Below are positions 33,563 to 42,232 of a stretch of 64,000 nucleotides of DNA, one piece after another (position 1 is the stretch's first letter; each line of letters begins with the position of its first letter). Location: positions 1,674,001-1,738,000 of the forward strand of contig NZ_CP087724.1 in assembly GCF_024972755.1 (NCBI RefSeq), written 5' to 3'. This DNA is from Halanaeroarchaeum sp. HSR-CO. Its GTDB lineage: Archaea; Halobacteriota; Halobacteria; Halobacteriales; Halobacteriaceae. Below the pieces are notes generated by a model that saw only the letters and a list, made by a program, of their open reading frames with translations, ran no database searches and was not told the origin of the DNA. The position numbers and the translations under genes are program-made.

Positions 33563-33636
33563 GGGCCGGTAGCTCAGTTAGGCAGAGCGTCTGACTCTTA
33601 ATCAGACGGTCGCGTGTTCAAATCGCGCCCGGCCCG
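33563..33636 (+). tRNA. tRNA-Lys (CUU)
   Basis: A complete 74-nt cloverleaf with no intron. The acceptor stem pairs GGGCCGG with CCGGCCC, the anticodon stem is TCTGA/TCAGA with loop CTCTTAA (anticodon CUU), and the T-arm is GCGTG-TTCAAAT-CGCGC. CCA is not encoded. A TTTACTATCC element about 30 bp upstream is a plausible promoter. The gene is followed by inverted and direct copies of its own T-arm. Confidence 0.97.
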
Positions 33637-33641
33637 CTTCT

Positions 33642-33701
33642 CCGACGACAGATTCCGAACAGCGGTGAGTCATGCGAACCGCTGTGAGCTTTCGTCGTCG
33701 G
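33642..33701. repeat. Nested inverted repeat directly after tRNA-Lys
   Basis: Outer arms CCGACGAC (33642-33649) and GTCGTCGG (33694-33701) enclose inner arms CAGCGG (33660-33665) and CCGCTG (33679-33684). It lies 5 nt past the tRNA and may act as a terminator or be part of a former integration site. It matches hairpin A behind tRNA-Trp in position but not in sequence. Confidence 0.7.
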
Positions 33702-33716
33702 TGAAGCGGCCACTAG

Positions 33717-33848
33717 CGATTTGAACGCAGGGAACACGCAGCGCGAACGAAGTGAGCGACCGTGTGACCGTGTGTTCACAATCGCGCCCGGCCCGCTTTG
33801 CTCCGAGCACCTTCGCGAGAAGCGACTCGGCCGCCGATTTGAACGCAG
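33717..33848. repeat. T-arm copies of tRNA-Lys in inverted and direct orientation
   Basis: GCGATTTGAAC at 33716-33726 is the reverse complement of the tRNA-Lys T-arm. At 33780-33798 a 19-bp block (aatcgcgcccggcccgctt) repeats the tRNA 3' end and first flank bases exactly (33621-33639). A second inverted copy, CGATTTGAACGCAG, occupies 33835-33848, matching 33717-33730 over 14 bp. The 19-bp direct copy looks like an att scar; the inverted copies are unusual. No gene is supported in 33637-33968. Confidence 0.75.
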
Positions 33849-33968
33849 AGGACCTCCGCAGCGATGCCCATAGACTATCGAGAGCGCCAATACGTGACAG
33901 CCACGATAACGCCCGACGGTCCACACTGCCATCCAGATCGTCTCGTCCCACTCTAGTCGACGGCCCGA

Positions 33969-41816: not shown

Positions 41817-41993
41817 GGGGCTGTGGCCCAGCCAGGCAGGGCGACTGACTCCAGAGGTCACAGCGTCCGGGACGACACTCCAGACTGGTATACCGAGCGG
41901 CGGACTGATCATCGGCCGCGTTGACGACCCTCTGGAGTTCCGAGACGCACCGGAGATATCAGTCGATCGGGGGTTCAAATCCCTCCGGCCCCA
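41817..41993 (+). tRNA. tRNA-Trp (CCA) with 103-nt intron
   Basis: Exons are 41817-41854 and 41958-41993. The acceptor stem is GGGGCTG/CGGCCCC, the anticodon stem ACTGA/TCAGT, the anticodon CCA at 41851-41853, and the T-loop TTCAAAT. The intron begins after position 37, the usual haloarchaeal site where the splicing endonuclease cuts a bulge-helix-bulge. A CTTTAG element about 30 bp upstream is a plausible promoter. Confidence 0.95.
41855..41957 (+). ncRNA. tRNA-Trp intron carrying a 2'-O-methylation guide
   Basis: In haloarchaea this intron contains a box C/D guide RNA that directs 2'-O-methylation of C34 and U39 in the same tRNA. The C34 guide is visible: CTCTGGAGT at 41930-41938 pairs over 9 bp with ACTCCAGAG spanning the anticodon (41848-41856). 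An identical ACTCCAGA at 41877-41884 within the intron offers a competing pairing. The C and D boxes are only roughly recognisable (ACTGATCAT near 41904-41912). Confidence 0.75.
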
Positions 41994-41995
41994 TT

Positions 41996-42057
41996 CTCTC
42001 ACGAATTGAAATCGCGAGCGACAGGGCCGTCGCTCGCGATTGGCGCCGCCGTGAGAG
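41996..42057. repeat. Nested perfect hairpin directly after tRNA-Trp
   Basis: Inner arms ATCGCGAGCGAC (42011-42022) and GTCGCTCGCGAT (42029-42040) are perfect over 12 bp with a 6-nt loop. Outer arms CTCTCACG (41996-42003) and CGTGAGAG (42050-42057) are perfect over 8 bp. It begins 3 nt past the tRNA and may form a strong terminator or processing structure. Confidence 0.85.
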
Positions 42058-42064
42058 TGGGATT

Positions 42065-42127
42065 GGGATTTGAACCGGACCGAGGTTCTGCGCGAAGCGC
42101 AGGTTCTCGGGCGTGGTTCAACATCCC
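42065..42127. repeat. Nested inverted repeat whose arms copy the tRNA-Trp T-arm
   Basis: Outer arms GGGATTTGAACC (42065-42076) and GGTTCAACATCCC (42115-42127) pair with one bulged base and copy, in both orientations, the T-arm GGGTTCAAATCCC of the tRNA next door. Inside lie CCGAG/CTCGG and the hairpin CTGCGC-GAA-GCGCAG (42088-42102). The direct arm continues as tRNA-like ctccgg. A further imperfect palindrome, CTATTCGA/TCGAATAG, lies at 42178-42205. No gene is supported in 41994-42232. Confidence 0.8.
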
Positions 42128-42232
42128 TCCGGCTTAGTTACTCGGCAATTGATATCGCGAGCGATAGCCCCCGACAACTATTCGAGCGATAGCACCATCG
42201 AATAGATAGTGCCCCCGGTACGACGTCGACCG

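Follow-up and report, generated by a model that had tools for sequence, protein, structure and literature searches.

We examined a 64,000-nucleotide stretch of the Halanaeroarchaeum sp. HSR-CO genome (GCF_024972755.1; NZ_CP087724.1, positions 1,674,001 to 1,738,000 of the forward strand; hereafter the window), in which two tRNA genes, tRNA-Trp and tRNA-Lys, are each followed by an array of hairpins. The tRNA-Trp gene contains an intron and was identified by Rfam but missed by ARAGORN, indicating that surveys of tRNA flanks that rely on one caller will miss such loci. The features of the two arrays are as follows.

41817-41993, + strand: tRNA-Trp gene with intron (Rfam RF00005, 46.4 bits); its 3' tail TTCAAATCCCTCCGGCCCCA (41974-41993) is the anchor sequence.
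41994-42057, + strand: hairpin A of unit 1, with a perfect 13-bp inner stem (42010-42022 / 42029-42041) and an outer CTCTCAC/GTGAGAG stem (DNA fold z -3.7).
42058-42076, + strand: inverse tail arm TGGGATTGGGATTTGAACC, a partial reverse complement of the tRNA 3' tail that is exact over GGGATTTGAACC; the same layout is seen at other tRNAs.
42077-42114, + strand: core hairpin of the ACCGAGGTTCTGCGC..GCGCAGGTTCTCGGGCGT type, dispersed at five tRNA loci of this genome.
42115-42133, + strand: right arm GGTTCAACATCCC and truncated copy of the tRNA-Trp tail (TTCAACATCCCTCCGGC, 42117-42133), with one inserted C; conserved in a sister species (locus L096).
42134-42205, + strand: decayed second hairpin A, similar to A of unit 1 (palindrome and similarity read directly from the sequence).
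33563-33636, + strand: tRNA-Lys (CTT), with the second anchored array in the window.
33637-33715, + strand: hairpin A of the tRNA-Lys unit (DNA fold z -3.6).
33716-33785, + strand: B hairpin of the tRNA-Lys unit, with arms GCGATTTGAAC / GTTCACAATCGC (DNA fold z only -1.1).
33775-33795, + strand: copy of the tRNA-Lys 3' tail with one inserted C (17/20 to own tail).
33796-33856, + strand: decayed second hairpin A and second inverse arm (GATTTGAA at 33836).

A preliminary description of the tRNA-Trp locus, made from the sequence alone, had reported a perfect nested hairpin, a second inverted repeat whose outer arms are the tRNA's own T-arm in inverse and direct orientation, a third palindrome at 42178-42205, and the same order behind tRNA-Lys. 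We found this observation to be real. Hairpin A is nested, although as a whole it is not perfect. The arm at 42065-42076, GGGATTTGAACC, is the exact 12/12 inverse of the T-arm segment at 41972-41983, and the direct arm at 42115-42127, GGTTCAACATCCC, is that segment with one inserted C, lying inside a 27-nt direct copy of the tRNA 3' end (74%). The third palindrome is present and by sequence looks like the decayed A hairpin of a second unit, and tRNA-Lys shows the same order with its own arms. The stretch folds far better than shuffled sequences (z -5.96; 0 of 200). The inserted C is not confined to this locus: some direct tail copies carry one inserted C in the T-loop octamer (TTCACAATC, TTCAACATC, TTCGACATC) at unrelated tRNAs and in different species (window 42117-42125 and 33775-33783; fetched loci, numbered L throughout, L025, L280, L274, L339 and L096).

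To test whether own-tail copies could arise by chance, we compared the flanks of 44 tRNA genes of this genome with permuted tRNA/flank pairs, a comparison that had been named in advance as the one that could overturn the finding. Own-tail matches averaged 18.0/24 against 14.6 for the permuted pairs (maximum of 10,000 permutations: 15.6). Own 24-nt tails recurred (≥20/24) behind 19 of 44 tRNA genes, against 1.0% of mismatched tRNA/flank pairs, and none occurred upstream at ≥18. The finding therefore survived this test. A looser B-hairpin pattern was found behind 21-24 of 43-44 tRNAs, about half, in each of four genomes, against 10 of 3480 shuffled controls.

Next, we searched the window's own genome with the locus. 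The core hairpin was found at four other places, every one of which lies downstream of a tRNA gene: Asp, Leu-TAG, Leu-GAG and Met. Reading these loci revealed a common unit of about 120 bp, consisting of TTCAAATC plus the tRNA 3' tail, hairpin A, an inverse tail ending in GATTTGAA, and the core hairpin, followed by another TTCAAATC plus tail. The pattern GATTTGAA-N25..55-TTCAAATC occurs 23 times in this genome, whereas the reversed control occurs 0 times. One array (L021, contig 1 of the window's genome, 1878046-1878830) consists of seven similar, mostly identical, units of about 111 bp in tandem behind a tRNA, indicating recent amplification. At L023:1191-1310 (same contig, about 443.0 kb), the T-stem GCGGG of a tRNA-Arg pseudogene runs straight into ATTTGAATCAGGGGAGGAGC..GACCGTGG-TTCAAATCC, that is, the tRNA 5' part is fused to the core of its own array, probably by deletion at the short GCGGG repeat. 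We also observed a second hairpin class downstream of tRNAs (L012, L020, L021, L023, L031, L269, L283, L284 and others; 18-20 cases in four genomes), which ends in GGGACTC, GGGAGTC or GGGAATC followed by the tRNA tail from the T-stem on, without the T-loop octamer, and which is possibly a second element family with another junction.

To examine the distribution of the pattern, we counted exact arm pairs across genomes. The pattern was present in 339 of 392 sampled genomes of the order (about 86%), with 0 in the listed control columns, although this figure counts the arm pattern only and adjacency to tRNAs was checked in the four genomes whose tRNA loci were fetched and in a set of named genomes. 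The reversed pattern gives 0 in nearly all genomes, and in the rest of the phylum matches are sporadic at 0-1 per genome. A partial scan of the named genomes returned loci from many Halobacteria genera, one Methanofastidiosia MAG (L422, which matches the strict pattern by transfer, contamination or chance) and one planctomycete. Of the 84 elements in these loci (a lower bound), 79 lie within 700 bp downstream of a tRNA gene, 0 lie only upstream, 3 are near a locus edge and 2 are without a tRNA, one of these in the planctomycete. Most of the hits that appeared to lack a tRNA in a first count proved to be elements behind a tRNA on the other strand. Many isotypes are used, Arg, Ser and Gly most often, and in the 71 cases compared, the direct copy matched that tRNA's tail at 93% on average.

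We then asked whether the arms follow the tRNA. In four genomes (the window's, one congener and two of a sister genus) we cut 139 units of 60-200 bp, of which 115 have a recognisable inverse arm. The heptamer of this arm equals the inverse of the host's T-loop octamer variant in 112 of 115 units (TTCAAATC: 79 right, 3 wrong; TTCGAATC: 25 right, 0 wrong; TTCAATTC: 7/7; TTCAAGTC: 1/1), and the adjoining 4 nt match the own T-stem complement at 2.46 against 1.67 ± 0.08 when shuffled. Beyond the T-loop and the first T-stem bases the inverse arm is only partly complementary, often with 3-4 nt missing. The own tail ranks first in 27% of units (expected 2%), but the stem/acceptor part alone is not distinctive (0.07 in the top 5%), and we therefore claim only the T-loop and adjoining T-stem bases.

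The two hairpins behave differently as modules. Core hairpins fold strongly (mean z -4.8; 99% below -2), and 74 of 115 have a ≥80% match at a different tRNA in the same genome, against 20 of 115 for A. Between different genes of one genome, A segments are alike in 32% of same-tail pairs and 2% of different-tail pairs, while cores are alike in 14% and 7.5%, respectively, so whole units appear to travel among tRNAs with the same tail, while cores also cross between tRNAs. CCCT-class cores keep a 5-bp stem beside a fixed internal loop, which pairs in 121 of 125 cells against 85 when shuffled (maximum 96), with changes on both sides.

Orientation relative to the tRNA is nearly fixed (48 to 0 for the commonest class; 107 to 7 over three classes). 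This could suggest that the hairpins are functional RNA parts of the pre-tRNA transcript (a terminator, a 3'-end processing signal, or a switch in which the inverse tail competes for the tRNA 3' half), duplicated and shared because they are useful. In agreement with this view, the sense strand folds better than the antisense in 164 of 184, many units have T-rich starts right behind the tRNA, and T stretches terminate transcription in Haloferax volcanii (PMC7237163). However, an apparent G-T excess (159 against 61) vanished when the conserved segment next to the arms, from which the sense bias comes, was left out. Inner core stems then showed as many G-T as A-C pairs (48 and 48; non-redundant 9 and 13), so pairing is not kept on the sense strand only, which points to a DNA-level hairpin. 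Tail-copy number also differs between sister species at the same tRNA, and about half the tRNA genes lack units. We consider the RNA reading unlikely.

To follow the dynamics of the arrays, we compared orthologous tRNAs between relatives. Between two species of the sister genus, 20 of 42 orthologous tRNAs differ in own-tail copy number, and between the window's species and its congener, 25 of 43. Alignments showed whole, precise units present or absent with the older flank beyond unchanged (L322/L288, L282/L314, L119/L120), and two tRNA genes with the same tail carry the same cassettes in different order (L282, L320). The arrays change quickly by whole units. As these comparisons were not polarised with an outgroup, each may be a gain or a precise loss by recombination between tails. 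The first tail copy is better preserved than the last in 14 arrays, worse in 5 and tied in 22, a weak hint of insertion next to the gene; strict newest-first insertion is not supported, since some new units lie internally. No circular or free form was seen.

It is possible, although in our view unlikely, that replication errors alone make the arrays, with fold-back template switching copying the tail in inverse orientation, slippage or unequal exchange between tail copies multiplying the unit, and no dedicated enzyme moving anything. The near-perfect 111-bp tandem array at L021 (ordinary tandem amplification also acts), the partial inverse copies with small deletions, the non-polar differences between arrays and the tRNA-Arg pseudogene fused to an array at a short repeat are in line with this. 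On the other hand, cores with the same internal-loop classes and ≥80-98% identity occur behind tRNAs with different tails, units at otherwise equal sites carry sequence not derived from the locus, and local copying cannot easily produce shared, orientation-fixed core classes across an order.

The preliminary description had proposed serial integrase scars, a terminator or processing element evolved from them, or a decoy for integrases or tRNA enzymes, and this interpretation was supported only in part. The first is the nearest, since units are precise, bounded by tRNA-tail copies and differ between sister species. A terminator or processing role is not supported by the strand test, and we obtained no evidence for or against a decoy. 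The units are, however, not scars of ordinary larger elements. tRNA 3' ends are the usual target of archaeal integrases (PMC8371274) and tail copies bound every unit, but the recurring entity is the compact two-hairpin unit itself (A and B segments about 48 nt median each), and arm covariation is not expected of scars. A loose pattern returned AT-rich chance matches in viral contigs, while among 2.9 million viral contigs only 2 match the stricter arm pattern and none match the commonest core. No sequenced phage holds the core. One plasmid core hit (L244:2869-3220) lies behind a tRNA-Gly(GCC) with units on the 828-kb plasmid of Natronorubrum bangense, near the ribosomal protein genes L3 and L4, so that this replicon carries chromosome-type core genes. 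We regard deleted viruses or plasmids as a very unlikely source.

To look for an enzyme, we searched for candidate recombinases and transposases, and none was found that accounts for the units. Tyrosine recombinases (PF00589) are too widespread, being present in all ten genomes tested, with and without the pattern, and no family was shared by all four positive genomes among the loci fetched, which did not include every integrase. Four tyrosine recombinases from three positive genomes, a subset of the integrases, match XerA, XerC and integron integrase (IntI) models only far below cut-off. No Cas1 (PF01867) match was found in the window's genome or in a second array-rich genome (G012). We also considered non-autonomous IS200/IS605- or REP-like elements moved by a Y1 (HUH) transposase through single-stranded hairpins, with the inverse arm acting as a guide to the tRNA tail. 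These would be hairpin-based, orientation-fixed and without genes, Y1_Tnp was present in all seven pattern-carrying genomes picked for this test and is present in the window's genome, and related gene-less elements (PATEs) exist in haloarchaea (PMC3119063). Yet several genomes with the pattern have no Y1_Tnp match, including a single-contig, 99%-complete genome with 10 elements (G023) and genomes G072 (6), G020 (6), G004 (4) and G017 (3), although later loss of the enzyme cannot be excluded, and placement only at tRNAs with tRNA-specific arms is not known for this family. We find this reading improbable.

Taken together, we favour, with moderate confidence, the explanation that these are gene-less mobile cassettes that use tRNA 3' ends as attachment sites. 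In this view, one cassette of about 120 bp holds a copy of the tRNA 3' end from the T-loop to the last base, a hairpin A, an inverse partial copy of that tail and a core hairpin; inserted at the T-loop/tail boundary, it would leave the tRNA gene intact and place a further tail copy behind itself, so that cassettes could stack into arrays. Our analysis establishes the anatomy, the tRNA-specificity of tail and inverse arm, the sharing of cores between different tRNAs, the precise presence or absence of units between sister species, the nearly fixed orientation and the order-wide distribution of the arm pattern. We infer, on the other hand, that movement is a site-specific DNA reaction acting in trans on a folded (hairpin) T-arm site, in the manner of integron attC sites or hairpin-ended transposons, most likely catalysed by a cellular or element-borne tyrosine recombinase, and that the inverse arm is needed because the site acts as a folded palindrome; recombination of one folded strand would be by analogy with integrons only. 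The T-arm (stem-loop-stem) has the layout of a tyrosine-recombinase core site. Our working assumption is a selfish element.

Integron cassette arrays with folded attC sites (bacterial, and also in archaeal MAGs; PMC9668308) likewise hold stackable cassettes of fixed orientation that are reordered between arrays and bounded by an imperfect palindrome with conserved arms and a variable central hairpin. Here, the platform is the tRNA 3' end and not attI beside intI, the cassettes carry no gene, and the arms follow the host tRNA and not the attC core boxes (RYYYAAC / GTTRRRY): the right arm is GTTCAAATC or GTTCGAATC, in which the fourth base is C, not R. Small mobile repeats (SMR-A), PATEs and MITEs of Haloquadratum (PMC3119063) share the size of about 110 bp, the absence of genes (unit interior here: median 98 bp, too short for an ordinary gene), the inverted repeats, the lack of a known mobiliser and insertion in or at palindromes, and our units are also present or absent between close relatives. 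SMR-A elements, however, target IS605-type transposons and PATEs and are highly conserved in sequence, whereas these units sit behind tRNAs and their inverted arms change with the host tRNA, so that terminal inverted repeats of fixed sequence are absent. The E. coli tyrT repeats (rtT RNA) also lie behind a tRNA gene and each hold a copy of the tRNA 3' end, but at one locus in E. coli and with no inverse arm following the tRNA known to us; at the tRNA-Trp locus only a tRNA match to Rfam was found at E up to 1, with none to RtT. tRNA-targeting integrative elements with tyrosine integrases (SNJ2, pNOB8 and SSV types; PMC8371274) attach at the tRNA 3' end and restore the gene on integration, but are kilobase elements with genes, while the cassettes are about 120 bp, stacked, and use many tRNAs of one genome. 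Casposases insert at tRNA 3' ends with a duplicated target, but the units have no fixed terminal inverted repeats and Cas1 was absent as described above.

We place these units among gene-less mobile repeats, from which they differ in target and in their changeable arms; an entirely new kind of element is possible but not shown. A more far-reaching reading, which we consider unlikely but not ruled out, is a tRNA-anchored cassette system, in which tRNA genes serve as the platform and a trans-acting recombinase moves gene-less cassettes through a folded T-arm palindrome that is re-matched to each host tRNA. It would be an integron-like system without genes, without IntI and without a dedicated platform, present across an archaeal order. 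We found no description of this structured repeat, which sits directly behind tRNA genes across Halobacteriales, in the literature searched, although prior description cannot be excluded as most subscription papers and all preprints fell outside the search. If mobile, it is among the smallest tRNA-targeting elements known to us, and its inverted arms are matched to each target, which no described family does as far as we know. It makes testable how hairpin sites are recognised, how tRNA genes tolerate repeated insertion, and why integrases favour T-arms. It also adds tRNA fragments that can mislead annotation and searches for attachment sites in haloarchaea.
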